Source: Owenia fusiformis (Eukaryota; Annelida; Polychaeta; Sabellida; Oweniidae). From it: DNA of 64,000 nucleotides. Position numbers and translations under genes: made by a program. Positions within the stretch are counted from its first letter, which is position 1; each line of letters starts with the position of its first letter. The notes under the pieces were generated by a model. It did no database searches and was not told the DNA's origin. It saw only the letters and a list, made by a program, of their open reading frames with translations. The stretch covers positions 27,828,166 through 27,892,165 of the forward strand of contig CAIIXF020000011.1 of the NCBI GenBank assembly GCA_903813345.2, given 5' to 3'. Positions 1,250-45,400 of the stretch are shown in pieces.

Positions 1250-1578
1250 AACATTGCTGACAGTGGATATGTTATATTATATCTTCATTGGACTCCATTC
1301 ATTCAACTTCCACATTTACACCTAGCTGCATACATATTTAAAGACATGCGTATTCAGCCAATGCTTAAAATCTTACTTGCATGATAGTCTACCTGAAAAT
1401 GATTGTTTTGGACTTCAGAACAGTTCATCTTAATTCCTATACATTACTTCAGCATTGGAACCTTTTAAAATGTTTTAAAACTGAGCTTTTTTGTAGATAA
1501 GAAGGATTAGTAACCATTCTTTTCATAATTACTACCCTATTGATTTGCAGTGTCATTATAACATACATCAACCTGACA
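1250..1578. other. Intronic/intergenic, nothing recognised
   Basis: No coding frame, repeat or RNA was identified. It lies downstream of the last visible HACE1 exon. Confidence 0.4.
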
Positions 1579-2038
1579 TGATGGCTTCAAGTCAACCTCC
1601 CTCACGACCTGGAATACATCAAGCTATACACTGAATGTTAGGTCAAGGCAAGAGGTATCATGCACCTACCTGATGGCTTCAAGTCAACCTCCTGCATGAC
1701 CCCAAATACACCAAGCTATACACTGAATGTTAGGTCAAGGCAAGAGGTATCATGCACCTACCTGATGGCTTCAAGTCAACCTCCTGCATGACCCCAAATA
1801 CACCAAGCTATACACTGAATGTTAGGTCAAGGCAAGAGGTATCATGCACCTACCTGATGGCTTCAAGTCAACCTCCTGCATGACCCCAAATACATCAAGC
1901 TATACACTGAATGTTAGGTCAAGGCAAGAGGTATCATGCACCTACCTGATGGCTTCAAGTCAACCTCCTGCATGACCCCGAATACATCAGTCTCCACACT
2001 GAAGGTCAGGTCAAGGCCAAGGTCAGAGATATCATGGT
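1579..2038 (-). repeat. 92-bp tandem array derived from the HACE1 exon 17 3' edge and donor
   Basis: Five units of 92 bp start at 1579, 1671, 1763, 1855 and 1947. The rightmost unit (1947-2038) is the genuine 3' end of HACE1 exon 17. The other four are copies lying downstream in the intron. Read on the minus strand, each copy repeats the end of the exon (…GACTTGAAGCCATCAG). Three copies keep the donor GTAGGTGC, at exon-end equivalents 1670, 1762 and 1854. The outermost copy has lost the donor GT. The copies share derived changes absent from the exon, including a TAG stop where the exon encodes Glu of TFSVETD. One initial duplication followed by expansion explains this. Confidence 0.9.
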
Positions 2039-5000
2039 CAAGAATCCATTGGAGGTTCTTAGCATACTCTGGGTCTATTGAAGCCACATCTTTGTAGTTA
2101 ACTGGTACTCCTGAAATGGTAATAGATAATACATAATTATTGACATTGGGATAAAATTCATATCCTTCAAAAATCATACAATATCCTTTGATTATAATTA
2201 TATTTGAAATAAACATGATTTAGCAAGAAATATTTCTCACAGTGTTGAGGTTAATGAAAACACATAATGAAATTCTGTGCTAAGGGGTGATAGACTATGA
2301 TGTGAAGTCCAGTCCATCCTATAAGGGATTGAACCTACAATGCATCACATTCTGGACGAATGCTCTACCACTGAGCTATAGAACTGACTGACTCTTTCAC
2401 ATCAATACTGCTGTTACTGTGAATCCACTTACCAAGGATATGTTTGTAGAAAGATCGTGTAAAGTAAACGTTAAGGAGTTGTTTATGGTACAATGCAAGA
2501 CCCATAGCTTGACCCGCAAACTCAAAATAATTCAAATGGTCGGGGTTAACAGACGAGTTACTATTCGGCTGGAAGGTGCTGCCATCTGCTGACTGAGTAA
2601 AAAGAGCATAATCTGGGTTGAGGATTTCTCGTGACAATACATCGAACCATTCTCTCATCACACCTTGCCCCATGCCATCCTCGTTGTCAAACCGAACTGC
2701 AAGATTTTTCTTGAGTTTTTCCGGATTGTTCTTGAGAAGTTGATAACAGCTGCTATCAAACAATTTCTCTGGAAATAAATGAGTATGTGATTAAAATTAT
2801 AAATGCTACATGCTCTTCTGAATGTGAAAGGGAATAAATAGGCAATTAAAACACCATAAGCAGGTATTAATATGTCATTTGTTACAGATGCCAACCGCCA
2901 AACACCGAACACCAACAGCCATCCACAAAAAATATTCCATGCCCACTTAGAAGATTACCTTACCTCTTTTAATGACTAGTATATCAGAATCATAAGGTGG
3001 AATGTGAAGGACCTCACTAGTTGTGTTGTCAGGGTGTAAGTTCTCATAGAACCAGTCTTTCCTGGCATCAAATGGCTGAAACACACAGAAGTTACACATA
3101 AAAACATTTTAAAACATCTGCATACATGTCACTCTTCTTGGTCAGGTTCTAAGTTCAGTTTAATTATCATCTTATAATTTCAATTTAAAGAAATTATTGC
3201 AAGAAACACATGATTTTTATTTCAATCGGGACATCACCAATTTTTTTATTTAACTATTTACTTTTGCTTTACTTTATAATTAGCTTGAGGAATGAATGAT
3301 AAAATTTGGATTTGATGAAATAAGACTCAATGATACAATTTAGAGTACCAGGTGTATGCCTGTTTTCGTCAAATCCTCGTTAATTTCACCATTTCCACTC
3401 CAAATACCAGGTGTCCTTGTACTTCTGTTTTCTTAAATTCCTTGCTAATTTCACTCCATTTCCACTCACCATGACAACCACATTTGTACTAACCTGTGAT
3501 TTTATGATGTGCATAAAACGAGACATCAGTTCGGGGCAGTCTAACAGGAAGTGAAAGTGGTCAAAGATGACAGTCGGATTTCTGGCGACTAAAAACTTGA
3601 GCACTGTATCATGTCTGCAGACAAACTCTATGAACCTTGGTGACGTCATCCTAAAAATATAAAACAATAATATTCAGATAGTGCAGTCCAAGAATGGAAA
3701 TATTTTTGTACATATTTTCAGGCACATCCTCAAACACAAAAGGACTTTTGCCACTCGATATTTTTGTGAGCTATCTGGGCTCTGGCAAATTCTTGACAAA
3801 CTTGGGCTAATTTCTATATATTTGTATATCTACTTCTTGAACTGATAATTTTTTTACTGATGAGATAAATGCTAACCTTTCAAAGTTCCAAGTGAAACAT
3901 GGGATGATTTGAATTATTATACTTGGTCAACTTTGATTCTGATCAACTGGTATTTGAGCATAAATGTCAAATGAAATTAATGACTTCTGCCAGCAAGGTT
4001 TTATTGAAGACTTGACATTAAAAACTGTTTCATTTTATAAGTTAGTTCACAATATCATCAACCGCAATAACATTATACACATTTTATATCAATTTTATAT
4101 CAATTTCAATACAACAATAACTAGGAAAGTTAATCATTCAGAAGGAATGGTCTGTATAGTATACTGAGTAAGAAAAAGCAGAAAATGATGTTCTCCAAGA
4201 TGACTCTAGGATGCATTCTTGTCACTTTAATTCTGGTAATAACAACAACTGAAGGAAAGAAGAAACCATGCGTTCCTCACCCAACTGCAACATGCAACAA
4301 ACAACAAAAGAGTTGTCCAAACACATACAGATGTGCCAAAGTGAATGGGATATGCTGCAGGAAGAAGAACATACCAGCCGATTGCGATGCTGCAATTGAC
4401 CAATCAACTAATGCACCATATGAATGTACACGACCCTTTTATAGCTGTAAATCATTAGATGGACCAAAAACCAAGTATGTTTGTATCTATCATAATCATG
4501 GAAGGAATGCTTACTCTATGTGTTGTGAGAATCCTATCTGCTTTGACATATCTGGAAACATGCATAGGAAATATGAAGGTGAATGGACCGAGTCTAACGG
4601 CTGTACCGTATGTAGCTGTATATCCACCAACAACACTGAATGTGATGACTCGAAATGTCAAAACAAATGTGGTATGTAATTTCATGTGTAATAACAATAG
4701 AACACTGTTATTGATTTGTGGTTTGGTGTAATATTGTAATGCTAGTCTAAAATGTTGTACAAATGCCTAGATGTATTCAAAATCAACATTTTTTATTGTA
4801 GGTGAATTTTCTCAATTTTCCCCATGCCCAAAAAGCTCATGTGGTAAACAGTATAAGATAAGGAAATGTATAAATACAAAGAATGACATAAAATCGCAGC
4901 GTAATGCTGAACTGAACGTGACAATATGTTATCCCCAGCCTCCAGCCCAATGTCCACTCCCAGGAAGAGTTAGAAGTAATTTAGTTATTGTACCCATGCG

Positions 5001-8000
5001 CCAAGGGGCTGCTAGAGTATTCCCAGAGTTCAATTATCGTTGGATGGCTCATTTTGCTTATGGACAAGAGGATCAGGTTTATTGTGGAGGTTCAATTCTA
5101 AGTCCAAGGCATATTCTAACTGCTGCCCATTGTTTCTACTTGTTTGGAAAGAAAATGTCAGCGTCTTTTATTAAAGAGAAATTCACAGTTAAAACTGGTA
5201 AATATCGGTTATCTCTTAAAGAACCTCTTGAGCAAGCTCCAAAAATTAAAGATGTGACCACTCATGAAGGTTTTGATCCAGACACATACGATAATGATAT
5301 TGCTATTGTAGTACTTCAGTCACCAATTCAGTTTAATGAACATACGCATCCGATCAATCTTCGACATAAAAAATTTGGTCGAAAAGCCATGGGGAAATAT
5401 TTTTGTAAAGTATTGGGATGGGGCCTTACTAATGATTCTTCTGTAGACAGGGATATTTTATTGGAGGTAATAGTTACCCCAGAAAGCCATTTGACTTGTA
5501 CAAAGAAAGTTGAAAATGTCACAGAGAATATGTTTTGTGCTACTCCTAGAGTCCCTTATAAGGATAAGAAGTTAAAAAGTTTGGATCAATGTGCAAGTAA
5601 TTCTGGGGGACCTTTAATGTGTCGCAATGGGCCACAATGGTATCAGTATGGCCTAGTAAGTTCCTGTAGGAACCATACTTACCAAATTGGGGTATATACT
5701 AAATTACCTAACTATACAGATTGGATAAAAGATGTCACTTCATCTCCTGGGGGCTGGGGAGACTTCAGTGGATATTCACCATGTTCAGTATCATGTGGAG
5801 GTGGAACCAGGTCCAGAGTGAGGGCATGTACCAACCCTGAACCTATTCGCAATGGGAAATGTCGTGGCTTTAACTTCAAGACTACAGACGGTGAGATGGT
5901 ATATATAGAAGATGAGGAATGCAACACTAACCCATGTTAATCTCCAGGACTGGCACTCCAAGAAGAGAAACAATGTGGACAGTAAAATATACAATGTACT
6001 TATACAATATAAATAAAAATATTCAGTAATACTAGCTTGTGTAAGCGTAAGAGCATGTGCACCTGTCAATATTTTTGTGACTTCAATCATTTTGCAAATT
6101 GTTTATTTAGCATACTAAGACAAATGGAACTTTTACCATGGCAGTCCCTGATTCTAATTGGTCAAATGGAACTGGAAGTGCATGTAGTATACATAAGGGT
6201 TTCATTAATTTGGAATTACTTTGTTTCAACCCTTTTAGAATTCTTTATTTTTTGGATTCCTAAAGCATATATACTTACTGTAGTTTATCAGTCTGACAAG
6301 CACAGCACATGTAGAACGCCTGTATTACTGCACATATTCTTGGACACACAACCTCTATGATGTCTTGTTGTTTGCCTGCTTGCTTGAGTTTATCAAACCT
6401 CTCTGACAATGGAATGATACCTTCATCATCTGTGCTGCATATGGAGGCCTAAAATAGTGTAGTCATATAGTTGTTTATACATATCACACTACGTAATTGT
6501 TGTAATTTCAAATTTTTAATTAACTGTAGCACAGTTTTACTAGCATTCTGCAAAGTATTTCAACCTGGATTTTCATATATAGCGCAGTCAGATGTCCCTT
6601 TGGTAGTTCGACTTTTTCAGGAAAGCAACAAACTTGGCACAGTTGTAGAAACATATGATCTGAATGAAAAATGATTTCGGGGCAAGTGATTCGGGGTGGT
6701 CTTCATGGATTGTAAGCCTCTGACCCCCACCCCTATCAGGCGGGGAGGGGGTACATTATAATAAAATAAATAAAAATAGTTGTAAAGTATATTTCTTTAA
6801 ATGACTTCATTTGGTGATTGCTTTGAGCCTTGAAATTGAGAAAAACCTATTTTAGAAATGGTGTTTAGGAAGGAAAATACATTTTAACCCAATTATCTAG
6901 CGTGAATTCATCTTTCAAAGGGTCAAATATGGGACATCAAGTACTGTATTTCAAGAATGTGATGTCTGATCATCCTGAAAAAATTCATACTAATAGAGAT
7001 ATAGGTGTTAATCACTCATATGATATATGGCTTGTGTAGCTCATGTAATTTTTGAGAAATAAATTATCGAAATATGGATATTTAAGCCCTTGCGGCCTAG
7101 GGGTGACCTTATTTTACCTTAATAATTTTTAAGATACGCAATGTTTGGGCCTCATATGAATTCTAAATGTTGCATTAAGTATTGTTTTGTCATATTATTC
7201 CTAATTAAATGTAAAAAAATTATTGGAAATTAAAAAAATAATCAAATTTTCATTTTCGGTTCTAAAGGGCCAGGGGTAACCATATTTTACCCTAATAATT
7301 TCCCAGATATGTAATATATGCATCTCAAATTAGCTCAAGATGTTGCATATAGTTCTGTTTTATCATACTTCTTCCAATAAGATGAAGAAAATGATCGGAT
7401 ATATCTAAAAAATCAAAATTTTCACTTAAGCTCTTGATGGCCCTGGGGTAACCTTATTTTACCTTAATAATTTTCTAAATATGAGACATAGTCACCTCAA
7501 ATGAGCTTAAGATGGTATATTTAGTCCTGTTTTATCATATCATTCCCAAGGAGTGAAAAAATGATTGGAAATTATAAGAAAATGACATTTTCATATTACA
7601 CCCCCAATCCGCAACATCTTCTTGCAGCGCTGTAAACAGTACTGAACAATGCAGTCAGAGTACTGCACTATATAGCAATGTACAATGCTATTCTAACACC
7701 ATCTGTTTTGGACAGCGTAGTACAGTACTGTTTTTACAGCTCAGTACTGTTTTAGAAAACAGCTGTGTTCAGTACTGTTTTTACAGCACTGTTTACGAAA
7801 CCATGCTGTTTGATGCAGTTTGAGATTGGTAGTGTAGTTTATGATAGGTCAGGGATGACCTAATTTTACCTTAAAAATTTAAACAAAGATATATCATATT
7901 GTCTACTCAAATGAGCTCAAAATAGTGAATATAGTCTAGTTTTGTCATATTATTGCTACTGAGATATACAATAATGATTAACAATTATAAAAAATGAACC

Positions 8001-11000
8001 TCAACAGCCATTTATTCCTTTTTAGTACCAATGGCAATACTATCTAGTTTTATAGAACATTTTCTAAGATATGAAAATGTTTGATAAGTCCCGTTCATAC
8101 TCGCACGAGTAGTAGCATTGTTAAGATTCTGTATATATTATCATTTGAGTATATAATCCAAATCTATAAAACCTAATCAAAGGAGTCATAATTTATGGAT
8201 TCTGACAGTCTCTCCTACAGCTACATAGCTCAGAGCAAATCAGATCTGCTTTCAAACATTTGCATCTGTTCTCTTGACACAGGTATCTACCCCATGACCT
8301 ACATTTTATGTTGTGGCCTCAGTATCAGCAGTGGGAGTAGTCCAGCCACATTCATGTGGTGATAGAAACTGTGGGTACAGATGCATCAGAATGAATAAGG
8401 AATGAATAATTGACATTTTCAGCACAAGTTACTGCCAGTTTAAACCACATCAAAATCAACTGTATTGACTATGATTCTTATTAGGTCATGACAGAAGCAG
8501 TCTTTGGCATGCTTCTTCATATGAGCGAATGGTGATGGCAGATACTTCACTATCGGGCAAAGATATTGCATTACCTCATTGTGAGGTCACTATCTTCTTG
8601 CCATCTTCCTCCAGGGTTTCAGTTTAAATGCCAGGAAGGAAAACAGCTCCCTCTTGTTCCAACTATCTTAGGAAATCTTGCCAATTCCACAGAAGAAAAT
8701 TAGTAGGATATACTTTCCTCACTGTTCCAGTTTTGTGCTGTTTGTATCTATGCTCATTAACATCAAAGTTGAATGACTAAGCTACATAGTAGATGCCAAA
8801 ATAATAGACAGGGCATGTATAGTTAAACATGCTAACAGTGAAATATAAAGAAAATTTGGTGATTATGCAAATATGATATTACCCACGAAAAAGTCTGCAA
8901 ATAGTTCATTGCCTTGATGTCAGCTGGGATGTTTACAAGACACTAGCTTAAAGGGGCAACAAGGTCTGTAGAAGATTCAATTTTTTTACTCTTTCTGAGC
9001 TATCAGGGCAATATTTGGCTTTGACATACCTATTGCAATGCAATGTTTTAGCCCAACAGTGTGGTTCTGCCATCACCCTTGCTCTTATAAGAAGAAGCAG
9101 ATTCAAGGATATTTCTCAATATTTTCAGTTAGACTGCTTCAATCATGGCCTTCAAGAGAAAGAATAATACTCCTTACATTTAATTCTGATGTGGTTATCC
9201 TGGCATATATGTGATGTTAAAAACTGAAAAAGTCAATTTGGATAGCATATGGTAAGGGAGAAAACAAATCAATATCTACCTGCCCATGACCAAAGTTTAA
9301 TCCTCCCCATTTCTCATACAATCATTGGATGTGATGTTACATCTGTATTCTACTGCTATGGAAAAATGGAATAAATGGATTGAGATTTAAATGTGTCACT
9401 GAATTTTCTAATTGTTGTTATTATCTCAGTAGGAATAAAGTGAAAAACAGACTATTTTCCCCATTTTGAGATCATTTTATCTTGAAAATTATTGTGATAA
9501 CATTTGGCATTCTTGTGCCCAATCATTGACTGTCATTATTCACTGACAGAATCCTTGACAGAAGCAGCTCACCTTAACCCCTCCCCCCATAAGGCTAAAA
9601 TTATTAGGCGACTGGACTTACTACCCTTTGCATTCATTCAACTTTCCTTCTACTCTATCAGTTTTCAATGAATCTCTGAACTCACTGCGCTAATCAGAGT
9701 TTGTTGTCAAAATAAGGACAGCTTTCTATATGGTCATTTTCTCTGACGAAATCGCATCATTAATGTGCACGCATTTACCACTTGTTCCTTCAAGCTCGCT
9801 GATTGGTTGAGAATAGGTCAGCATGGTTTATTGCAGCTTGGGTCATAAATGCTTTAAGACCCAAGCTGCCAATAGCATCGGTCATGGGGACGGGGCTGCT
9901 AAACTCACTCCATCCTTTGCTTCTATATTATGGTAATATATGATAAAATCACCCCTGACCTGTCAAAAGCTAAAAATGTCATTTTTCAAATTTCCATTAT
10001 TTTTTACATCTCCTAAGGAATAATATGACAAAACAAGAGTATATGACACAATTCTAAGCTCATTTGAGTTGCATACGTCTCATAATTAAGAAAAGTTCAA
10101 GGATAAATAAGCCCCCCCCCCAGGCCATCATAAGCTAAAATGAAAATTTCAAATTTTAAGAAATGTCCAATCATTTTCTACATCTTATTGGAGGTATTAT
10201 GATTAAATAGAACTATATGCACCATCTTGAGCTAATTTGGGATACATGTATTACAAACCTTGAAAGTTATTAAGGTAAAATATGGTTACCCCTGGCCCTT
10301 CAGAAGCGATAATGAATTTTTTTTTTTTTTTTTTGAAAAGTTCCAATCATTTTTCAATCCAGTTAGGAATAATATGACAAAACAAGACTCAATGCACCAT
10401 TTTGAGCTCATATGAGACCCATACATTGCATATCTTAAAAATTATTAAGGTAGAATAAGGTTACCCCTACGCCGCAAGGGCTTAAAAATTCAAATTTCGA
10501 TAATTTTTATCTCAAAAAATACATGAGCTACCCAAGCCATATTCTATATTTGTGACGAACACTTATACCCCTATTAGTATGAATTTTTCCAAGATGATCA
10601 GACATCACATTCCTGAAATAGAGTACTTGATGTCCCATATTTGACCCTTTAAAAGATGAATTCACGCTAGATAATTGGGTCAAAATGCATTTTCCACACT
10701 AAACGCCACATCTACAATCGGTTTGTCTCAATTTCAAGGCTCAGAGCAATCACCAAATGAAGTCATTTAAAAAAATTTACTTCACAACCATTTTTATTTA
10801 TTTTTTATAATGTACCCCCTCCTCGCCTGATAGGGGTTGGGGTCAGAGACTAAAAAATCCATGAAGACCACCCCGGATCACTTGCCCCGAAATCATTTTC
10901 CACTCAGATCAAGTGTTTCTACAACTGTGCCAAGTTTGTTGCTTTCCTGAAAAAGTCGAACTATAAAGGGCTCATTTCTGGACATCTGACTGCGCTAATA

Positions 11001-14000
11001 ATATACAAATGTAACTAATTATTAGATCACTGTTATGTCAAGTTTATGATTAGTTAAACCGAGGTCATGTGACATCAAAGATCAGACCGAATATACACCT
11101 CCAATAGGCCACAGCTGGGTGTACAAAATTTCAATTAATCAATTTTCCCAACACAACACCAATCATAAAGTCAAGATACCTTTTTATTTTCAGCTGACTG
11201 GGTCTGTTTATCATCAACTCTGGGTATTGATTCCTCATCTGGTACTTTAATTGGCCTCGGAGCAAACAATGCCTCCTTGTCTTTACTCTGGTTGATTTCA
11301 TCATGAAGTATTAACAACCACTCCTCAAGTGATGTCCATAGTAGTTCTAGGTGCTGGGGAGACAGTAAAATCATAATTGTATGAACTATATATTTCAGTC
11401 CTGTCTTTATCCCATTCATATTCGACAAAAATACCTTGGATAATACCCCAGCTGTTACTGAAAAATATCTTGAATATTGTCCAGCCTTTATTGGATAAAT
11501 ACCTTGAATATTGTCAAAGCCTTTATTGGATAAATACCTTGAATATTGTCCCAGCATTTACTGAAAAATATCTTGAATATTGCCCAGCCTTTATTGGATA
11601 AATACCTTGAATATTGCCTAGCCTTTATTGGATAAATACCTCGAATATTGCCCAGCCTTTATTGGATAAATACCTTGAATATTCTCCCAGCCTTCATCGG
11701 ATAAATACCTTGAATATTGGATAAATACCGGTACCTTGAATATTGCCACAGCCTTTATTGGGTAAATACCTTGAATATTGTCACAGTCTTTATTGGATAA
11801 ATACCTTGAATAATGGATAAATACCTTGAATATCACCCCAGCCTTTAGTGGATAAATACCTTGAATATTACCCCAGCCTTTAGTGGATAAATACCTTGAA
11901 TATTGGATAAATACCTTGAATATTACCCCAGCCTTTAGTGGATAAATACCTTGAATATTGGATAAATACCTTGAATATTACCCCCGCCTTTAGTGGATAA
12001 ATACCTTGAATATTGCCCAAGCCTTTGGTGGATATACCTTGAATATTGGATAAATACCTTGAATAATACCCCACCATTTAGTGGATAAATACCTTGAACA
12101 ATGGATAAATACCTTGAATATTGCCCCAGCTTTTATTGAAGCCTTTGTGTTTCCACTGACTGCACATGTTCCATTTGTTCCAGTGGGCTGTGTAAGTTGA
12201 CTCTCTTTGTACAAGTTGCACATAAACTTTGCACACCTTAGTAGGCTTTTCACCTGATATGGCACATTACTGGACACACTGAAATACAGGGGAACACACA
12301 TAAACTTTGCACACCTCAGTAGGCTTTTCACCTGATATGGCACATTACTGGACACACTGAAATACAGGGGAACACACATAAACTTTGCACACCTTAGTAG
12401 GCTTTTCACCTGATATGGCACATTGCTGGACACACTGAAATACAGGGGTAAACACATAAACTTTGCACACCTTAGTAGGCTTTTCACCTGATATGGCACA
12501 TTGCTGGACACACTGAAATACAGGGGTACACACATAAACTTTGCACACCTTAGTAGGCATTTCACCTGATATGGCACATTGCTGGACACACTGAAATACA
12601 GGGGTACACGCATAAACTTTGCACACCTCAGTAGGCATTTCACCTGATATGGCACATTGCTGGACACACTGAAATACAGGGGTACACACATAAACTTTGC
12701 ACACCTCAGTAGGCATTTCACCTGATATGGCACATTGCTGGACACACTGAAATACAGGGGTACACACATAAACTTTGCACACCTTAGTAAGCTTTTCACC
12801 TGATTTTGCACATTGCTGGACACACTGAAATACAGGGGTAGACACATAAACGTTTAAGCATTAAGGTCTCTATGAATCAGGATTTAAATATCATTACAAC
12901 TGTATCAACACAACCTATTAATGTGATCTTGACCTTTAATATAGCATGACATGACCTAGACACTTAAGTATCCTTCCTTCACAAGTCAAATGAGATAGCT
13001 AATTAAAATGTGAAAATGATAAGAGATGAGTGATTTCTTTAACTATAACTTAAGATTGGTCCTTTTACAGGCTTCACTACTAACATCACTAGCAGTCTCC
13101 AAAAGTTAGCCAAATAGATGCACATTAGGTTACAGTAGCAATTACCTTAACAATTTGTGTCCTATATAAACTGCTTGTTGACCCAGTCCTATGAGTATAT
13201 CTGCACACATGGTTTGGTTCTTCTTCCTCAAGTAACTTAATACCTTGTAGAACTGCAACAATATTAACATAAAAATGGTCCTGTAAGCGTTTTGCACCAG
13301 AGTGAGAATATACATTTGAGGAGCAGTACCAATAGTGAGTAGATTTTGGATGACATTTTTAGAAACATGCTTGTAAAATGTAAGTCAAAAAACAAGTTTG
13401 CCCACTTTTGCATAACTGTAGAGTGAATACAGTTCATAGTTGTTGATGCATATGTAAAAACTGTATTCAATAGATGTCTCTAGTCATGCTCATCCATCCC
13501 ATTATTTATTCAAATATGTTAAAATAAAGTTTTATGTTTATCAATCATTCTAACTTATCTGAGTTATTCAAGGTTTGAAATCTATCAGAACCATGACCAA
13601 TATACGTCAATCTCCAAGCAAAAAGCACCAAACATCATCCTTTTATTTCCTTTTTTGAGGATAAGATGTTTAGCACCCTGCACTTGGAGGATGCAATTAC
13701 CTCTGTTTCTGCTAAGTCATCCTTCTGCACCATGGTGATTAGGGACTCAAATAATGTTGGTATCTGTTCAAGTAACATTTCACATGTTTCACTGTAACCA
13801 CCCTAAAAACATAAAATATAATGTACAAGCATATGTAAATATTATTAAGTCAACATGCTGTGGCAGTAAAAAGTTAAAAAGAAAACTTGCACTTCAGATT
13901 ATGTGATATACTGGAGCAGTTTTCAATAGCTTTAACTCCTTGCATAGTGCATGCAGAAGTGAAAGAGTCAAAAATAAATTATGTTTTTTCTATAAAATAG

Positions 14001-17000
14001 CTTCATTCTCATCTTCCATTCTCGTCAACTTCCAGATATTAGAAAATTTGATTATGGAATAATGTTAACATATTTAGTTACATTTAAAGCCAGCACCCAC
14101 CTGTACAGAGAGCTCCAGGGGTGTTGCATTGCTCCCATCAGGCACAAACTTTGCACCCCTCGATAGTAGTATCATCGCAGTGTCCCTCTGTCCATGGCTA
14201 TAATTAAGATGTTCAGATTTCAGTTTTTGGAGACTCAATATGCAAACATACACATTTGTCGCTTATTTTGATGCACTGTACAAAAATTTCCAAGCCTTAG
14301 ATTTTAAGGATGCAAAATTTCATGAGCAAACTTCTATTGAATATTTTTCTACAGTTCACCAAAGTATGCAACAAAAACATGTGTGGGGTACGATGTAATG
14401 AACATATTTCATCAAAATATATTTTGGATTGTGATATTGATCAGCTAATTGGCAAGAGGAGGGCGGTATAAGAAATTGCCTCATTATGAGTTAAATCATA
14501 GTTTTTTGTTTGTTCATTGAGATGTTACTTCTTGTGCACGAAAAATTTGATTTTTTAATTATTTTCACATTCTTTTTTAAAAAAACTCGCACCTGCATGC
14601 AAAGTGTAAAGGTGACGACTTTTGGTAGTTACATAAGTCCACATTTGCTCCGTTATCAATGAGGCATGTTACAGTAGATTTGTGACCATTCTGTGATGCA
14701 ACATGTAACGCTGTCTGACCTTGGGCATCCTGGAGGAATAAATTGGAATTGATACAATCGTAGTAATACACTTGGGAATTGATCCAAATATGTTTATACA
14801 CTCGGGGAACAAGTCCATAATATTGGAGTTGAGTTTTATGAAATAAAAACAAAAGAGAGGGGCCAATTCAATTGCTGTAGATGTTCACAACAAGGCTTCC
14901 AGTATATGATAAACAAATATTTATTAAAAAAAGAAAAAAAAGTTTATTCTCGAGATGTTATTTTTCATTGAGGTTGACCTCAAAATATAAGTGTTCATTG
15001 GGATAACTCCAACCTCAAAATGGAGTTGCTACTACAAAATGGTGATGTACATTGGCATTCATTTCCTTTTGGCATTTTTTTGAGATTTTTCAACAAATTA
15101 AATTTCAACAGAACATATCGCATAATTCACTGGTCACTCAAGGTTAAAGTTTTAGACCAACCTTTGATGGTTTTTAAAATTAAGAGTTAGAAGATGAATC
15201 ACTCATGGATACATTCCATGTACGTTTACATACCTCAACATCCACATTATGCACATATTGTAATAGATCATGAAGCATCTCGGTGCGTCCATTCACAGCC
15301 AACCAATGGATCTGAAAATTAGATACATCATATTCACTTAGCATAAAGTGGTGCAGTGCTAATCAGCAAATGCAGTATGTCAAAAGCAAAGAACATATGA
15401 AATAATAACAATACAAAACTAAATGGAAATCAGTTATTTTGTGTTTTCACTTGACTGGTTCAGTACAAGTAAATGACACATTGATTTACGGAAAACTCAA
15501 TGATGGTTTACTGTATAACATATTTAATTCAAAACATACAATATTTTTACTAATCAATGTAACTCCCAATGATTTAAATGCTAAAAATGCTAATTAGCAT
15601 CAAATGATTTAAGGCCCGGTCACACCGCCCGGACGTTGCTGGAGCGTTCCTTGAACGTTGAAAAAATTCATCAACGCTCGTCAACGCGCACAAAATGGGG
15701 AAAAAAACAAAAACACGGGCGTTGGCTTAGCGGTGCACCGCTGAAGCCCGCGTTGCTTTAGCGTTGGTTAAGCGGTTGCGAGCGGTAGCTAGCGTTTGTT
15801 TAGCGGTAATGCGAGCGTTGGTATAGCGGCGTTCTGCGCATGAGAGCGTTGCCTCGGCGGGGGTATAAATAGCAGCAGGGTTGGTTTAGCAGCATATCGC
15901 GTTTGACTACTGGGAAATTATTTCAAGTGGGAAGTGTTTAAGAGTAAAGACCTTTATTGGAATTTGTAACTTTAACAAAAGTCCTTCAAGGATTAAAAAA
16001 GAAATGTTTTAAATCCAAAGTGCTTCTATTAATGTAATATGACATTAAGAATGAATAACATTACAATTTTCATTAATAATCTCTCATATCATTTCAAACA
16101 AACATATCACAATTTAATCGTTGCATTTCCATTACTTGGAACCGATTTACGTTCAAATTGCTTTAACAATGTCAAATAACATATACAGCAAAGTAATAAT
16201 CATGACGCATGACAAATTTTTGCATTGCTGTGCGCGCATCAACTTTTTGTATAATACCATGACGAGTGCAACATTTTACAAGCTGCGCAGAAAATTCACA
16301 GATAATTTATTGAATTGCTTGACGTGAAAACACTAGATATATACTATATTTGAATAAAGGTCTCAGTAAAAGTCTATTTGTATTAACATATAATGAAAAA
16401 CAAAAATCGCATAATTCACCTTTTTATAATCCAAAATCAGAAACTTTGAGCGCTTAATTTAGGAATTTACAATGCAAAAAATTGAAATGCCAGACATGAA
16501 TATATATCAAATGTAAAACGCACAAGTGTCTCCACAGTGTTCTACACAGTGGTGCATTTCTCCACGTATTTATAGCCAAATTCTGGTCCCGCTCCGACAC
16601 CTCTATACCAACGCCAAAGCAAAGTTCATCGCCGCCATGGAACGCTGAGATAACGTCCGACACCGTTTCCAACAACCCCATGTACGCTGATAAAACGCTA
16701 ACAACCGCTCCACCGACGTTTGTGCAACGTTTAATCGCCGCCCGGGCAACACTGGCGAAACAGCGGTGGTCCAGCGTTTAAGATTTCTGCGTTGGTCTAG
16801 CGGATTCAAGCGTCCACGAACTTGCGTCTAGCGGTGCCAAACTTTGACTGGGCGTTGGTGGAGCGGTGATAAACTTTGCCAGGGCGTAAAATTGTCCCTT
16901 TTTCAACGCTCGCAATATTTTGAGCAGCTCAAAACTTTTGGAGCGTTAGGATGGCCACTCGAGAAACATCCGCGTTGGCCGAGCGTTTACAGCGTTGCTT

Positions 17001-19673
17001 TAACGGATGCCAACTTTTGTTAAACGGTGGTGAACGTTTACGAGCGTTGATGATTTTTTTCAACGTTCAAGGAACGCTCCAGCAACGTTTAGGCGGTGTG
17101 ACCGGGCCTTTAATGGAGTAAATTGCAATAAGGGAGCATTGGTCAATGCGGTTACGTTCCAAGTCCACTTATGATTTCATTGAAGCAAGCCATTTATCAA
17201 AAGCTGACCACATTCAAACTATAACTGACTGTTCAAGAATGATAACATCTCAATAACTTCCTGCACTTTCTAACCCATGGTGGAATTCACAAATTCACCC
17301 ATTTACATGCAAAACTAAGATGGCATCAAAATTGACGCAACACAATAATCCATCTATAATTGTATTTTTCTTACTATTGTCAGGCCCTCATTGCTTTTTA
17401 TGTTCACATCAGATTTATATTCCAGCAGCTTGTTCAAACATTTCTTCTGTCTGAAAAATTCAAAATCATAATATATGAAACATTTAAACATATAAATAAA
17501 GCGTATCATATCATGATTTGTATACATATACAAACATAAAATTATCTTGCCCAGTTTATTGTATTGTATTCATTCCAATATCATGATGACATAGCACATA
17601 TTGTAAACAATTGTAGATTTTCACTGGGCCTCTATAAGTAAGACCACTTTTTGTCCTGATGGAGCTTCCCAGAATAAATATAGTTTGCAAATCAAATCCA
17701 ATCAAGGAAACAAGGCATTAACATACAAAATGTCACCAACTGCCATTTGTAACAGATGTGGAATGCCAGACACTAACCGACAAACACCATCCGAAAAAAA
17801 GTTGCACTATAATAATATGTGACCAATTTTGGTGTTGGGATAAAAATGAATTATAATCGCTATTCATCTTTTAAATTCTCCTACCCATTTCTTGCGGCCA
17901 AGTGTAGAGGGGTGCACCCAGACATATCCTGCTTGTTCACATCTCCTCCTTTCTTCAGCAACAAACACAAGCACTCATAGGAGCCACAGCTGCATATACA
18001 AAAATAATTCAAATTTGAAAGAATACCTTTTACTGCAGTGTTAATAAAATGAGGAGAATTTTCAAATGCATTTTCAAATAAAACAAGACTTTGAAAACTA
18101 TGGTAATATGCCATTGTCTATCTCTGATTTTTTAAATTAAATTTCTCATATGGTATGGACTAGGAACTTACTTTGCAGCCAGGGGCGGATCTGGGAACCA
18201 ACAAGGGGAGGGGGCCCAAATTTCAGGTCAAAGAAAAAAACTTTGGAAAAAAGTTTGAAATTTTGAGGCCCATATTCTTCAAAATTTGGCCCAGTAATGA
18301 CCAAAAAGGCCCACTTTTTGGGGCCTTTTTTGCTAAAATCCCAATTTCTTTTTCTAGGCCCACCCAAGGGGGGGGGGTATGAGGTTTCTCATTGGATGGA
18401 CTTACTTTGCAGCTATGTGTATGAGGTTTCTCTTTGCTCTGCCAGCCCCATAATCGGGAGAATAGTCTGTGTTGGCCAGCAAGTCAGCTACAGATCTAAA
18501 TAAGATGAAATATGTAGATAGTTTAAGGTGAGAGCGTTTCTTATTTGAAATAAGATCTGTCAAGTTGCTTATGGTTTACACATAAGCACAACGTTTTTTG
18601 AATTTCTATATTTTCAAGAATATAAAGTTCTATATGAGAGTGTATTAAATTCATTTAAGGATCGGAGTTAAAGTACTTGCACCTGTAAACATTATATTAT
18701 GATTAAATGAGTAACTTGTACAAAATAACAAGTCAAGGATAAAGCCACCTTGAATGAATCATTTAAAATGTAAAGGATCTTCAGATGAACATTTTAAACA
18801 TGATTCTTTTCTTGGCTGTTTCATCTGTAATATTGTCAATTCAATGCACAATGATGGAAATATAATCAGCTTGAATAGATTTTTAACCAGATAATCCTGC
18901 AGTGTTGTCATGTTTAACCTTGTATCTTATATTATGTTAGAAATATGTACCTGTGCTGGTTTGCTATCACCATGGGCATCAGAACAAAGAATGCAGAGTT
19001 AGCATCTGAAATATAAGCAGATAGTTTAGAATATTGGGACATTAGATACATTGATATTGGTATGAAATTGTTGCTGGGACAAGCAAAAAGTGTTCAGATT
19101 GGCAGGTGTTCAGATTGGCAGGTATTCACATTCAAAGGTTTTCAGCATGGAAGTCTATGATCGATTAAAAAATGTGACTGAAAAAATCAGGTTTAAATGT
19201 AGTTTCTATGGGACAATGCAATTGAAAAATGAATGGTGTATTTATTTCATACTAAGCTGCTCAGACCATATACTCCATATGATACAGTATGAGTACTTAT
19301 AAGAACATTTTATGTATTACTGGGATGTCTATTTCTCAGAGAAAATTACTCATGTCCAGTATGAAGATGAGACGGACTGTAAATTAAAATATCAAACAGA
19401 GCAAAGAAAATCATAATTATTAATACAGGTTGATATCTTATCACGACATTCAGTTAAAAACACAAAAGAAGGGATAATCTATACATGTCTTTCAAGCCCA
19501 ATATCCAGGATACACTCACTCTACATGAGGTAGAATGTCTATGAGTAAGTTTTCTTCTACTACCTCTGATATAAACTGAACCTTATATATTAGATTATAT
19601 ATAACATACCTGTAGGAAGTTGAACTGTCCTGGCACTCTTAAGTGATCTTGCCAAATGTTGTATGAACTCCAT
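1946..19673 (-). CDS. HACE1: HACE1 E3 ubiquitin ligase (ankyrin repeats + HECT), 17 exons, 3' end outside the window
   Basis: HACE1 is a HECT E3 ligase; its known substrates include active Rac1. CDS exons on the minus strand, in order: 19673-19610, 19005-18951, 18495-18406, 17989-17885, 17450-17375, 15311-15234, 14729-14593, 14197-14101, 13802-13701, 13252-13146, 12278-12113, 11353-11180, 6448-6279, 3650-3494, 3075-2964, 2768-2433, 2110-1946. All junctions are GT-AG and phases agree throughout (2191 nt, about 730 codons). The start [20 protein letters not shown] matches the family N-terminus. Ankyrin repeats follow, e.g. [13 protein letters not shown] and [17 protein letters not shown]. The linker contains [18 protein letters not shown]-lobe motifs include [42 protein letters not shown] and [14 protein letters not shown]. 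Family length is about 909 residues. The last roughly 155, with the catalytic Cys of the C-lobe, are not in the window. Several exon edges are tandemly amplified. Confidence 0.95.
2290..2400 (-). mobile_element. tRNA-derived SINE head, minus strand
   Basis: Read on the minus strand there is an A-box-like TAGCTCAGTGGTAGAGCA (2378-2361) and a B-box-like GGTTCAATCCC (2335-2325) with tRNA-like spacing. The arms do not close into an acceptor stem, so it is a SINE relic rather than a tRNA gene. It ends about 30 bp from the donor of HACE1 exon 16. Confidence 0.6.
2870..2935 (+). repeat. Interspersed repeat fragment, family also at 17705-17800 and 54628-54735
   Basis: The stretch around CATTTGTTACAGATGCCAAC followed by ACCGCCAAACACC recurs, diverged, in another HACE1 intron and downstream of the universal stress protein gene. 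No termini were recognised. It is probably a fragment of an old transposon. Confidence 0.5.
3355..3475 (-). repeat. Two-copy ~60-bp intronic tandem duplication
   Basis: Two diverged copies of a unit containing ATACCAGGTGT, then AATTTCACCATTTCCACTCC, sit side by side just inside the intron after HACE1 exon 14. Unlike the other HACE1 arrays this one does not include the splice donor (3493-3492). Confidence 0.6.
4185..5940 (+). CDS. Secreted VWC / TSP1 / trypsin-like / TSP1 protein, nested in a HACE1 intron
   Basis: Two exons, 4185-4671 and 4802-5940 (GT-AG, phase 1), encode 541 residues. Residues 1 to about 24 form a signal peptide ([19 protein letters not shown]). A Cys-rich region follows, then a VWC-like module ([20 protein letters not shown]), and a TSP1-like segment ([13 protein letters not shown]). 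Next is a chymotrypsin-fold domain with [17 protein letters not shown] (His272), DNDIAIVVL (Asp328) and Ser430 in [10 protein letters not shown]. The protein ends with a C-terminal TSP1 ([20 protein letters not shown]). The S1-pocket Asp is kept (Asp424), predicting trypsin-like specificity. The usual GDSGGP is SNSGGP: the Asp that pairs with the new N-terminus on zymogen activation is Asn, and no R-IVGG-type cleavage site is seen. Activity is therefore uncertain. The start is either of two adjacent ATGs (4185 or 4188). A poly(A) signal follows at 6012. The gene runs opposite to its host intron, between HACE1 exons 13 and 14. Confidence 0.88.
6012..6017 (+). terminator. Poly(A) signal of the protease-like gene
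   Basis: AATAAA lies 72 bp after the TAA at 5938-5940 and about 260 bp before HACE1 exon 13 on the other strand. Confidence 0.6.
6580..10997. mobile_element. 4.4-kb foldback-like DNA element with ~1-kb inverted arms
   Basis: The termini TAGCGCAGTCAGATGTCC (from 6580) and its complement (to 10997) open inverted arms of about 1 kb, roughly 6580-7600 and 9950-10997. Both arms contain landmarks such as GATTTCGGGGCAAGTGAT and the run CTGATAGGGGT…GGGGTCAGAG. Each arm also carries several copies of a ~180-bp unit around GGGGTAACCTTATTTTACCT (about 7090, 7265, 7445 and 7850 on the left, mirrored on the right). Long TIRs with internal tandem repeats fit a foldback-type or other long-TIR element. The target duplication is ambiguous (possibly ATA). 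The centre holds decayed coding sequence. It fills most of the HACE1 intron between exons 12 and 13. Confidence 0.8.
9180..9370 (+). pseudogene. Decayed transposon ORF relic (nuclease-like motifs)
   Basis: Across several frames one reads SDVVILAY, then [12 protein letters not shown], then [13 protein letters not shown]. This order resembles a repetitive invertebrate protein family whose D-containing blocks look like PIN/FEN-type nucleases. Stops and frameshifts separate the blocks, so it is non-functional. The family assignment rests on motif memory only. Confidence 0.4.
11415..12120 (-). repeat. Donor-bearing minisatellite adjoining HACE1 exon 11 (about 23 units)
   Basis: About 23 copies of a motif that reads on the minus strand AATATTCAAG|GTATTTATCC occur in units of about 34 bp (with CAGCCTTTATT spacers) and about 20 bp (without). 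The unit nearest the exon contains the genuine exon 11 donor: the exon ends at 12113 with …GCAATATTCAAG and GT follows at 12112-12111. Every further unit repeats a near-identical donor-like site in the intron. Unit length is not a multiple of three. Readthrough from exon 11 stays open only to a stop at about 11990. Confidence 0.9.
12113..12278 (-). CDS. HACE1: HACE1 exon 11 (linker after the ankyrin repeats)
   Basis: This exon is listed separately because arrays of its own edges flank it. The acceptor TATTTCAG precedes 12278 and the donor GTATTT follows 12113. It joins exon 10 (…GHKLL) as [20 protein letters not shown] and ends …IFK, joining exon 12 ([13 protein letters not shown]). Both joins match HACE1 (HKLLSLSSN and VFKPLELLW in the human protein). 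It is 166 nt long and enters in phase 2, leaving in phase 0. The upstream copies would be added in frame if an upstream acceptor were used. Confidence 0.85.
12221..12844 (-). repeat. Eight-copy 78-bp array of the HACE1 exon 11 acceptor and 5' part
   Basis: Units start at 12221, 12299, 12377, 12455, 12533, 12611, 12689 and 12767, with an exact 78-bp period. Each contains, on the minus strand, a pyrimidine-rich CCCCTGTATTTCAG acceptor followed by the first ~57 nt of exon 11. Eight acceptors therefore lie at 12278, 12356, 12434, 12512, 12590, 12668, 12746 and 12824. Because 78 is divisible by three and no unit has a stop, one frame runs through the array into the true exon. It repeats [20 protein letters not shown]-type 26-residue units. 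Variation is mostly single bases (K/C, V/L, R). Confidence 0.93.
15864..15871 (+). promoter_or_regulatory. TATA box inside the Harbinger-like element (left arm)
   Basis: TATAAATA in a GC-rich context (GGCGGGGGTATAAATAGCAG) is a strong match to a pol II core promoter pointing inward. It is paired with an identical octamer on the other strand at 16574-16567. Confidence 0.5.
16567..16574 (-). promoter_or_regulatory. TATA box inside the Harbinger-like element (right arm)
   Basis: The minus strand reads TATAAATA, pointing inward toward the left-arm promoter. Two convergent promoters fit the two-gene plan of autonomous PIF/Harbinger elements, but no long frame follows either one here. Confidence 0.4.
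17705..17800 (+). repeat. Interspersed repeat fragment (same family as 2870 and 54628)
   Basis: AAGGCATTAACATACAAAAT followed by GTCACCAACTGCCATTTGTAA, then CACTAACCGACAAACACC, closely matches 54628-54735 in order and spacing. Confidence 0.5.
18168..18410 (-). repeat. Duplicated HACE1 exon 3 donor edge split by a ~200-bp insertion
   Basis: The real exon 3 edge reads on the plus strand CTTACTTTGCAGC, then TATGTGTATGAGGTTTCTC (from 18401). A second copy lies just downstream in transcription order: CTTACTTTGCAGC at 18168-18180 and TATGAGGTTTCTC at 18378-18390. The two halves are separated by an insert (about 18180-18377) that begins CAGGGGCGGATCTGGG and ends in a G-run. The pre-insertion duplicate was about 35-40 bp and carried a second donor. 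The insert resembles the gene-poor, G-tract-containing repeats seen elsewhere in the window. Confidence 0.7.
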
Positions 19674-39400: not shown

Positions 39401-42400
39401 GTTATTAGAAAAATAAATGTCTTTGAAATCGAATGCACGCGAAATCAAACATAAAATCCTTTGTGTTCTCCTAAAATTTATTTTTGAAAACCTGCATCAA
39501 ACCTACATCATGGTCTTCGCTCAAAATCAGTTAATAGTGACATAGTACATCAAAAGTGTACTACGGCATATTTTGTCACCTGTCACGTGACTGTACCTTG
39601 TCGATGGTTAGGCGTGTTATTGGGTGATTTTAACTTAGATCTACTTAAAGCAGATGAACATAACTTGACAAATGATTTTTTATGCCATCTATATGAGAAC
39701 AATTTTATGCCCTTAATCTATCGACCAACAAGAGTAACTCATAACAGTGCAACTTTGATTGATAATATATTCACGAATGTTAATAATGTGACATCATCAG
39801 GTGTAATACTTTATGACATCTCTGATCATTTTCCAGTATTCTGCACCTCTTTACTTGAAAAACCATCTTATAAAAAAATCAAAATAAGTTATCGTTCATA
39901 TTCTGATAAGAACTTAACCAGATTTAAAGATGAAATATGTCTCATGGAATGGACTGATTTAAAACAACAGGACAATGTCAATGAAGCATATTCAATATTT
40001 ATTAACAAATTTACTGAGGTGTACAATAGATGTCTCCCAATATTAACTAAAACTGTCAAAACTTACTGTAACTTAGAAAGACCATGGATATCCCTGGGTA
40101 TTATTACTTCAGCTAAGAGGAAAAATAAACTATATATTAAGTTTAAAAAATGTCCAACTGATGAAAATAGACTCACTTACACTAATTATAAAAATAGACT
40201 TAATCATATTATCAGGAATGCAGAAAAGCTTCATTATAAGAAAAAATTTGAAATTAGCAATGGCAATATAAAAAAGACCTGGGATGTAATAAACTCTATT
40301 TTGAAACGTAAACAACCTAAGAAGATCCTTAATGATAATTTTATCCATGAAGGAAGAAAAATTGATGATGGAAAATCCATAGCAGACAATTTTAATAAAT
40401 TTTTTAGCACAATTGGTGAAAAGCTAGCTAATGAAATTAACTCAGATAAAGACCCACTTGATAATGTTAATAAAATCGAACGTAATATTAATTCAATTTT
40501 CTTGGCACCTGTTGATGTTAATACTGTCCAAAATCAAATCAAGAACTTAAAGGACTCAGCCGCAGCCATTGATGATATTAAACCAAAAGTTGTTAAAGTA
40601 TTACATGATCATATAGCGGATCCTCTTACCTTCATTTATAACCTCTCTATGACCACAGGTATTTTTCCTGAAGAACTTAAACTTGCTAAAGTTATTCCAA
40701 TTTTCAAAAAGGGGGAACATGATAAATTCACAAACTATAGACCAATATCTATTTTAAGTGTATTTGCTAAGATGTTTGAAAAAATAATGCATGACAAAGT
40801 ATCTACTTTTTTAGAGAAATATGAATTATTGTATTTACACCAGTACGGCTTTCGGAAACATAGATCAACTTACATGGCACTCCTAGAATTTATTGAAAAT
40901 GTCAGACATTCATTAGATAACAAAGAATATTGTATCGGAATATATTTGGATCTATCAAAAGCTTTTGATACTGTTAATCATGCAATATTACTTAAAAAAA
41001 TGGAACATTATGGTATAAGAGGAATTGCACTTTCATGGTTTTCATCTTATTTATCAAATCGAAAAATGAAAACTGAATACTCTAAAAGTTTATCCGAGAA
41101 ATATTTGTCTGAAGAAGCAATCGTTAACTGTGGAGTACCCCAAGGGTCTGTTCTAGGCCCCCTCCTATTTATCATATTTGTAAATGACTTCTATCTAGTT
41201 TCTGATAAACTCAAACTGGTGATTTATGCGGATGACACTAATATATTATGTAGTGATTCCAATCTTGATAATTTGACCACAACTGTAAATTCTGAACTGT
41301 GTGACATCAATGATTGGTTGTTGGCCAATAAACTCACTTTAAATGTTAAGAAAACAAAATACATGGTCTTTGGAAATAAAAGAAATATATCTGTGAACAA
41401 TGAAATAAAAATTGCAAATTCTAACCTTGAAAAAGTAGATGAGATAGGATTCCTGGGAGTAATTATTGATTCAAAATTATCTTGGGCTCCCCATATCAAT
41501 GCTCTTCATAGAAAAGTTTCAAATGTTATAGGAATGTTATATCGAACAAATTATGCTCATACTTTAAATTCAAAGATGATAATATATAACTCTCTGATTT
41601 TTTCTCATCTTAATTACTGTAATATTTTATGGGGAAATGCTTGTAAGAATCTATTAAATAAACTACTGATATTGCAAAAGAAATTTGTTAGATTAATAAC
41701 AAATTCAGATAGATTAGCTCACACATTCCCAATTTTTCAAGATCTTAAAATACTTAATATTTATCATATTCACACAATCCAAACTGTTTCATTCATGAAA
41801 AAAGTTATAAGCAAATCTGTACAGTTCCCTTCAAAATTATACGATCACTATTTCAAAACTAGAGAAAACCTACATCAACGTATAACTCGATTTGGTCATA
41901 ACTTAGATATTCCTAAACATAGAACCAGAATTGGTGAAAATTCTATTAAGGTCCATGGTTCATATATATGGAATTCCCTCAATGAAGATATTAGAAATAA
42001 ACCATTAAATTCACTCATATCTCGTTTGAAAATTGACCTCCTGAGTACAGAGTAACCAAAACATTTATTTCATTTCTTTATTGTCTCATATTATTGTATT
42101 TGTATATTGTATTTATATTATATTATTGTATTGACCTATGTACCACTTTAAATGTTCACAGTTTATCATGTTTATTGTAAATTTAATTATGGGCAGTCAT
42201 ACACCCCCTGGGGTGTCATAGCCTGTATAATGTTGTAATTTTTGTAATGAAAACTGAAATAAATTATTTTGAAATTGAAATTGAATTGAATTGAATTGAA
42301 TTCAAAGAAAATGCTTTTCAGAAATCTTTGGAAATGGTTATACTCTCGAGTTTGCTAGAGATGGGAAGAATCTTCAAGTAAGATGAATGTTGGAATGTCA

Positions 42401-45400
42401 CAACAGGAAATTGGCCCATTCATTGTGTACATGGTACAGAGGAATCTTTCTCACATTGTTTTTCATCATCCAAGATTTGTATATCCGCGTTTTGATAAGA
42501 CATTCGCTTTTCACTTGGTCTGAGGTTGGAGCCCCTGAAATCTGAATCAAGATGCAGTCATGCAGTCTAATGTTTTATTTTTAGTAAACACAATATTTGT
42601 TTTATTCAGAGAATATATGTTTTTTTGATCATTTCCATTGCTTATACATAAAGATCATCAAGAAACGATGTATTCAGAGAATATATGTTTTTTGTGATCA
42701 TTTCCATTGCTTATACATAAAGATCATCAAGAAATGATGTATTCAGAGAATATACGTTTTTTGTGATCATTTCCATTGCTTATACATAAAGATCATCAAG
42801 AAACGATGTATTCAGAGAATATATGTTTTTTGTGATCATTTCCATTGCTTATACATAAAGATCATCAAGAAATGATGTATTCAGAGAATATACGTTTTTT
42901 GTGATCATTTCCATTGCTTATACATAAAGATCATCAAGAAATGATGTATTCAGAGAATATACGTTTTTGTGATCATTTCCATTGCTTATACATAAAGATC
43001 ATCAAGAAATGATGTATTCAGAGGATATACGTTTTTTGTGATCATTTCCATTGCTTATACATAAAGATCATCAAGAAATGATGTATTCAGAGGATATACG
43101 TTTTTTGTGATCATTTCCATTGCTTATACATAAAGATCATCAAGAAATGATGTATTCAGAGAATATATGTTTTTTTGTGATCATTTCCATTGCTTATACA
43201 TAAAGATCATCAAGAAATGATGTATTCAGAGAATATATGTTTTTTTTGTGATCATTTCCATTGCGTATACATAAAGATCATCAAGAAATGATGTATTCAG
43301 AGAATGTATGTTTTTTGTGATCATTTCCATTGCTTATACATACATAAAGATCATCAAGAAATGATGTATTCAGAGAATATATGTTTTTTTTGTGATCATT
43401 TCCATTGCTTATACATAAAGATCATCAAGAAATGATGTATTCAGAGAATATATGTTTTTTGTGATCATTTCCATTGCTTATACATAAAGATAATCAAGAA
43501 ATGTGAGGGGCAACATTTGAAAGTGAAAGGTTCCTATATGTAGTATCTGATCATATAGAATTACTCAGAAAAATGTCATATATAATTATATCCTGAGCTT
43601 GCAAACTTCAAATAACTATTATACAATAATATCTGGCAAATCAATAAATCATTTTTCAGTCGCAACCATCATTTGTAAATTAAAATAGTCTGTTATGTGA
43701 CATGCAAAGTCCCATGTTTTTATTCTTTGACCCCCTAATTACAATTTCTCAAGACGTGATATAGAGTATTTCTGACATGTCTGAACCAAATGTCTTCTAG
43801 AATCTGCTTCATACATCTGATCGGGTTAACTTTATGTGCGTATAATAAGATATACCATTTACATACAATGTGTGCTTTACTTTAAGGGCAAGTAGAGATG
43901 GCTGAACCACATCCAATAACTTTTAACAACAATTTTTTTAACATAACTAAAAAGTGTGATATTGATATTGTCTGCTGTTGCCTCACAGGCAGATGAGGCA
44001 TACATAATCCAGCTTTTCATTTAGATAGCAACGTATATCAATATTTGAGGTTATTGTAACCTGATCTGTTTTTCAGCTTCTTTAATAACATTCATCAAAT
44101 GTACACAAACCCTTTGATGAAATAACTGTGCTTCACACAAGGGACTATGGTGAATGATGAATACCGTGATCTTTGTTGAATGACAACAGTGTGGAGCATA
44201 ATTGTTGTGAAAATACTGTGTCATTTTCAAACTTCACTTGATACAGTTAGACTTGTCTAATCTGAACGCCAATGGGACCAGTTTAAAGTATTCAGATATT
44301 AGGTGTTCACATTTTTTAATGTGTGAGATTGTATGTCTGTATGAGATAACGAAATTGGGACCAAGAAAAGTGTTCATATCGAGAGGTGTTCAGATCAGAC
44401 AGGTGTTCTGATATACATGTTTCACTGCAATCACTTTTAGAAAATTTGTCTCATATAAGAACATTAAATACCAACATCCAGACAAAATATATTCATAGAT
44501 TGTTATAAAACAAACAGTATACTATGTTAAAATAGAAGACATATCAAGGTCCAAAGTCAAAATTTTGGCATTGCATAAAAAGTTAAGTAAATATTGAACA
44601 GGTTGTTCAGTCTCATTGAAAAAGTTGTCTCAAGATAACATGCCCTATCTTTGAACTTTAGTCACTGAAGAAGTCATACATAGATCTTTAAATACATGTT
44701 GTGCACATGTTATATACATGAATAAAATAATAAGCTGGAGTTAAAAATTGGTCAAAACATAGGTTGGGAGTTATGTGTCTTTTTATGGATTTTTCAGGTG
44801 TTGCATATGTGGCTGGTTAATTGAAATTATTGGCCTTTATGCTCAGTAACATAATTTGAAGTACAGTTTAGTTTCTGCTTTTTCAATTTACCTTTTTAAA
44901 ACAGCCCTTAGAATAAATTTTTTAATTGTTTAATTGGGATTATACAGGCCAAAATTCCCGTAAATTCTCTAAATCCACCTTAATTTTAATCTTTAATACA
45001 TTTTCTAGCCAGTAATACATATCTAACCCAAATCCAAAAATAAACATCCTCTGTCTTTTTTTCCTGTGATTCATTACTCTGGTAATATATTAAATAACTA
45101 AAGTTCATTAACTTCAGAGAATGATTTATTTTTGGACAGTTCGCTCGTCATCCAACCAGCTTTATCAAGATTACATTAAAAAAAATCTTAATTAACTTTA
45201 GTTATCTTCTGTCTTGTTCAGGTATTTTACTCTACATACCTACATAACAAAAATAGCATTGTTTTACATTGCCAAAGTGACAATGGTATATTACTTTAGT
45301 TGACTTCAGGGCAAACTGGAACATTAAGTTAGCAAGTGTACGAGAAACCATGCTACAAAACATGTTGACAGCTTTATAGTTAGAAAAGTTTACAAACTAG

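Follow-up and report, generated by a model that had tools for sequence, protein, structure and literature searches.

Three exon–intron junctions of the HACE1 gene in the annelid Owenia fusiformis were found to be repeated in tandem together with their splice signals: the acceptor of exon 11, the donor of exon 11 and the donor of exon 17. In their anatomy, these arrays fit the structural definition of mirage minisatellites, which are a known kind of repeat. At all three junctions, the tandem unit extended across the exon–intron boundary and included the splice signal. One copy lay within the intact exon of a normal gene, which has a predicted 912-aa HACE1 frame, and similar arrays were recognized by eye in four other genes of the genome, one of them marginal. 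The explanation that we consider probable is that the HACE1 arrays are 'mirage' minisatellites that came to straddle the junctions by ordinary turnover, with the exon-proximal copies being the ones used.

The window, which is the whole stretch of 64,000 nucleotides that was analyzed, contained coding exons 1–17 of the 20 HACE1 coding exons on the minus strand (1946–19673), and exons 18–20 were located in the adjoining 10 kb on its left side (locus L003). Spliced with the exon-proximal sites, these 17 and three exons gave a single open frame of 912 aa. In a phmmer comparison, residues 1–912 of the model matched residues 5–909 of the PDB HACE1 chain 8h8x_A (909 aa) end to end, with 1239 bits. 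The ankyrin, middle and HECT homology to 8h8x_A was all present, including the region of the catalytic Cys, where ...SAATCINLLKLPEY of the model aligned with ...TSSTCINMLKLPEY of the chain; the Cys in this alignment is presumably the catalytic Cys of HACE1. This homology identifies it as a HACE1 ortholog of full length, an ankyrin-HECT E3 ligase. Exon 10 (13146–13252, minus strand) ended with ...GHKLL and left in phase 2. Exon 11 (12113–12278, minus strand; 166 nt) was entered in phase 2 and left in phase 0, and it was followed by exon 12 (11180–11353, minus strand). Exon 17 (1946–2110, minus strand) belonged to the HECT domain. The join between exons 10 and 11 aligned without a gap to PDB HACE1, and an insertion was absent there. 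The gene model and phmmer agreed in gene, exon, position and phase with the original prediction, which had taken exon 11 to be the linker after the ankyrin repeats.

The GC content along the window varied from 0.29 to 0.38. An ORF with Trypsin and thrombospondin-1 domains (4771–5940) lay on the plus strand, opposite to HACE1, in the interval from exon 13 to exon 14, and it is apparently a gene nested within a HACE1 intron. A cysteine-rich ORF beside it (4134–4679) had no Pfam match. Intron 5 of HACE1 contained a segment (15610–17110) whose ends, as read by eye, were GGCCCGGTCACACCGCC and its reverse complement; this segment may be a DNA transposon bounded by inverted ends. A long reverse-transcriptase ORF (RVT_1; 39488–42055, plus strand) was closely followed by an array of 13 copies of a 69-bp unit (42603–43503). 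Past the 3′ end of HACE1, a further tandem array with an open frame (YYNGCNGFMG...) was observed at ~1130–2137 of L003 on the minus strand.

The acceptor-side array of exon 11 occupied positions 12219–12851 on the minus strand, where TRF reported a period of 78 bp, 8.1 copies, 97% matches and zero indels. Each 78-bp unit comprised the final 21 nt of intron 10, including the AG, followed by the initial 57 nt of exon 11. The minus strand of the whole window contained the word TATTTCAG joined to TGTGTCC exactly eight times, which placed the first exonic bases of the eight acceptors at 12824, 12746, 12668, 12590, 12512, 12434, 12356 and 12278. The first seven of these belonged to decoy units (12279–12845, minus strand), and 12278 was the acceptor of the modeled exon. 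An ORF of 287 aa (11990–12853) was open in a single frame through all eight units into exon 11. The choice of any of the seven upstream acceptors would retain the frame and add 26–182 aa, and exon 11 counted from the most distal acceptor would be 712 nt long, with 182 additional residues.

Among the eight units, 9 of the 78 columns were variable, including 3 of the 21 intronic and 6 of the 57 exonic columns. Eight units that are so nearly identical are not a chance product, and the acceptor array at HACE1 exon 11 is confirmed as real. The amino acid was altered in three of the six variable exonic columns; these changes were too few to give a test of selection any power. The most distal copy was the most divergent from the exon copy and held two of the three amino-acid changes. 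The 9-mer GTTTATGTG was found at both ends of the array, one copy being in intron 10 and the other in exon 11, and the length of the array agreed with 8 × 78 + 9 = 633. A DNA search, of a kind that skips very common words, placed the array at a single position in the genome.

The eight units had been predicted from the sequence before, each with a TATTTCAG acceptor and about 57 nt of exon 11, and TRF and the word search bore them out. The eight junction positions proposed between 12278 and 12824 were the same as the first exonic bases computed here, the single frame into exon 11 was found as the 287-aa ORF, and the calculation of a ~712-nt exon with up to seven in-frame repeats of 26 residues was correct. 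That description thus held for the position and anatomy of the array; it did not state the minus strand, and it overlooked the arrays in intron 11 and at exon 17.

On the donor side of exon 11, an array with 35- and 20-bp steps repeated the end of the exon with its donor TTCAAG/GTATTT (11429–12135, minus strand). This array covered 684 of the 759 nt of intron 11 (~90%) and contributed 19 decoy donors, counted by the word A[AG]GTAT. Exon 11 was therefore bordered at either end by an array that repeated its splice site there. In a third array (1571–2017, minus strand), 4.8 copies of a 92-bp unit repeated the end of exon 17 with its donor CCATCAG/GTAGG; three of the decoy donors were exact, and a fourth copy was degenerate. 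Every extension at exon 17 met a stop, and only two of the 19 decoys in intron 11 (12038 and 12005) were open and in frame into exon 12; thus, most of the donor decoys would break the protein if they were used. Among the HACE1 decoys, the acceptor array was the exception, since the frame was retained at seven of its seven upstream acceptors.

For every internal HACE1 junction (38 in all), the surrounding 30 nt served as a query for local copies with an identity of at least 75%. Three of the 38 junctions had such copies: seven were found for the acceptor of exon 11, 15 for its donor and three for the donor of exon 17. The other 35 had none at this identity over 30 nt. The donor region of exon 3 (GCTGCAAAGTAAGT; ~18170–18410, minus strand) was seen by eye to recur imperfectly ~240 bp downstream; this second copy was below the 75% threshold and was left out of the counts. 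When random 30-nt positions in the HACE1 introns were taken instead, 164 of 2000 had a local copy, and 116 of these 164 were in 500-bp bins that hold the three arrays.

The strength of the sites was compared with position-weight matrices, which were small and derived from HACE1 alone (18 acceptors and 17 donors). On these matrices, the eight exon 11 acceptors scored 6.1–8.2, with 7.8 at 12278 and 7.3 at the most distal, 12824. The 19 decoy donors of exon 11 scored 6.0–7.2 vs. 7.0 for the real donor. At each of the three acceptors that were checked, a branch-point-like TTTAT preceded the site by 23 nt, and this word was invariant across the eight units. Because the decoys were equally strong and TTTAT did not vary, the local sequence was not in favor of 12278. 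The length of the exon may point to the proximal acceptor, as 166 nt is typical of HACE1 and 712 nt is atypical; the coding parts of the 19 other exons ranged from 55 to 336 nt.

With eight acceptors alike in score, an isoform ladder could arise, in which several of them are used and the linker gains 0–7 extra modules of 26 residues, depending on the allele and possibly on the tissue. Of the 60 AGs in intron 10, the near-equal acceptors were the top 8, followed by one that scored 4.0, and all seven upstream ones were open and in frame for 26–182 additional aa, which argues for such a ladder. For most of the human tandem repeats at exon–intron boundaries in one study, transcripts with the repeat kept in the exon were also reported, in the accessible text (PMC2812944). 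However, a period divisible by three together with 21 stop-free intronic nt is expected by chance at ~0.21, and the period was divisible by three in only two of the seven junction arrays found in HACE1 and elsewhere (78, 35/20, 92, 61, ~59, 147 and 34 bp). The open frame was thus weak evidence for function. The donor-side decoys were mostly frame-breaking, PDB HACE1 carries no insertion at the join of exons 10 and 11, and the available parts of two papers describe regular splicing for the mirages of amphioxus, among them the BflGb6 acceptor mirage (PMC3087553; PMC3902484). We regard it as unlikely that the ladder exists in appreciable amounts, and it is still more doubtful that the acceptor mirage is used and that the number of linker modules (0–7) is set by the repeat number of the allele. 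If the ladder were true, the eight acceptors and 20 donors would make exon 11 a natural assay of splice-site competition and a hot spot of intron building.

A scanning spliceosome prefers the first good AG past the branch point. If this preference decided the matter, acceptor 12824 would be used constitutively and HACE1 would normally have the 712-nt exon 11 with its 182 additional residues; the frame is open for this, and the distal acceptor was little different in score (7.3 vs. 7.8 at 12278). Such an exon would be far above the range of the other 19, of the three amino-acid changes two lie in the distal copy, which is also the one most divergent from that of the exon, and the lack of an insertion in PDB HACE1 also speaks against it, so that we hold constitutive inclusion to be highly improbable. 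Tandem arrays are also a known weak point of assembly, and a single assembly was examined here; the copies might thus have been created or multiplied by the assembler. Against this, the copies differed by distinct variants in nine columns, three arrays with different periods were present within HACE1, and comparable arrays were found at unrelated loci. An artefact of this sort is hardly credible.

The occurrence of such arrays elsewhere in the genome was assessed at 60 excised loci that surrounded the best-scoring matches to HECT and the myosin head. Merged and without HACE1, they gave 43 regions with 154,309 bases, 93 HMM exons and 45 arrays; the exon list comprised the 98 of 173 HECT and myosin rows that were judged to be inside the excised loci, and 93 of these were in the 43 non-HACE1 regions. 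Arrays had a period of at least 15 and a length of at least 45, and an overlap with an exon had to be at least 9 nt. Six of the 45 arrays overlapped exons, where random placement would have given 12.4 [P(sim≤obs) = 0.0105]. The enrichment of arrays at junctions that was expected from HACE1 was thus unsupported, as the overlap in the sample was below random. Arrays that are rarer on exons than under random placement gave no sign of targeting to splice sites.

By eye, four of the six exon-overlapping arrays straddled splice junctions. Two were acceptor arrays, in a myosin-head gene (C1:57373835–57374107, period 61) and in a HECT gene (C11:15886180–15887140, TRF period 296, with a unit of ~59 bp by eye). 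The other two were donor arrays, in a HECT gene (C1:34728460–34729188, period 147) and in a myosin-head gene (C4:17297164–17297299, period 34), the latter being marginal with ~4 exonic nt per unit. The remaining two were a repeated stop-codon end (C9:6666664) and a spurious case (C2:4437188). A total of 11 arrays had been flagged initially: one was that of HACE1 exon 17 and four others were those straddling junctions. Apart from the two just rejected, a pair on C7 and one on C281 lay directly beyond a stop codon, and one on C4 (C4:17297432) was apparently intronic, ahead of an acceptor, and was not counted. Boundary arrays are accordingly not rare in the O. fusiformis genome, although 4 of 93 exons (one marginal) is a rough figure, because HMM ends approximate exon ends and the sample was drawn around the strongest matches.

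Several other observations were made in these searches. Twelve myosin-head matches (profile ~18–84) were found within 8 kb at C9:37986009–37994334, sharing their strand with the remainder of a myosin gene close by, and this cluster looks like tandem alternative N-terminal exons. Seventeen HECT matches with an identical score of 40.4 bits (profile 234–284, in a 161-aa frame) were distributed on C1–C6, C10–C12 and C512, and they are probably a fragment in a dispersed, near-identical repeat. Three matches above the cut-off to the haemoglobin linker domain PF16915 (Eryth_link_C) were located within 15 kb of C6, one of them with an internal stop. At locus L001, an LDLa ORF was found beside a linker C domain, and the best PDB chain was 22jw_M, 'Hemoglobin linker 1' (E = 0.0025). 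To our knowledge, the haemoglobin linker C domain is specific to annelids. Together with the GC content of 0.29–0.38, these linker genes spoke for an annelid and against amphioxus as the host. The GFP family (PF01353) and mollusc haemocyanin gave no match, and neither did their controls in any genome; COX1 was likewise without a match, while its control was detected in 8 of 14 genomes.

Under the mirage explanation, the 78-bp array would have started as a duplication between the two 9-bp direct repeats GTTTATGTG in intron 10 and exon 11, and it would then have expanded through slippage or unequal exchange. Splicing would take place mainly at acceptor 12278 and donor 12113, giving the 166-nt exon 11 and leaving the remaining copies as intronic decoys. 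In a genome rich in arrays, they would form wherever minisatellites form and would last where the body of the exon remains intact, and the splice sites would not be targeted as such. The copy number should then differ between haplotypes, and variation of the HACE1 array between individuals is likely, as for a minisatellite.

The recurrence of such arrays in an annelid and the bracketing of exon 11 on both sides are of more interest than the ladder. Near-identical natural sites that compete with each other could be used to probe whether the spliceosome settles on the site that comes first, on the nearest one or on the one set by exon definition. Intron 11, of which ~90% repeats its own donor end, touches on the proposal that repeats seed or remodel introns, as it is worded in the available part of the paper (PMC3087553).

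In the literature searched, reports of boundary-spanning minisatellites otherwise concerned lancelets and certain recently duplicated human genes. In human paralogs in segmental duplications, tandem repeats at exon–intron boundaries can alter splicing and create new introns, according to the accessible text (PMC2812944). They share with the HACE1 arrays that minisatellites are located at exon–intron boundaries; however, the human cases described there are recent duplicates with transcript support, whereas HACE1 is a conserved gene whose arrays were read from genomic sequence. Tandemly duplicated (mutually exclusive) exons likewise have repeated exon sequence adjoining an exon. Unlike them, the 78-bp units consist of the acceptor and the first 57 of the 166 nt, and the donor and the 3′ part of the exon are absent. 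The closest annelid case was that of the earthworm metallothionein genes, whose first intron holds minisatellite arrays; for these arrays, the available text does not state whether splice sites are spanned (PMC12783039). A literature search to which subscription papers were mostly closed brought up no mirage for HACE1 or for any annelid, and the phrase 'mirage minisatellite' gave no match.

The amphioxus mirages are the most similar system. As far as the accessible texts go, they are known from Adh3, TnC and the globins BflGb6 and BflGb9 (PMC3087553), and also from PGBD5 (PMC3902484). They are stated not to interfere apparently with regular splicing, alternative transcripts from cryptic sites being conceivable; their length differs between haplotypes, and they were proposed as a route of intron gain (PMC3087553, in the part available). 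The Adh and TnC mirages are cited as being without aberrant mRNAs, and in lancelet PGBD5 a predicted exon inside the mirage repeats lacked transcript support, again within the available text (PMC3902484). Splicing and length variation have been studied in some amphioxus mirage genes. In both systems, so far as the amphioxus mirages are described in those texts, the units span the boundary, the splice signal is copied on either the acceptor or the donor side, and the exon body is intact. Unlike the amphioxus mirages, the arrays described here are in an annelid host, one exon is repeated at both ends with a third HACE1 junction in addition, and the acceptor array preserves the reading frame. Three arrays in the conserved HACE1 gene and four in the 43 regions (one marginal) suggest convergence between annelids and the systems described before, or a wider phenomenon that has been overlooked.
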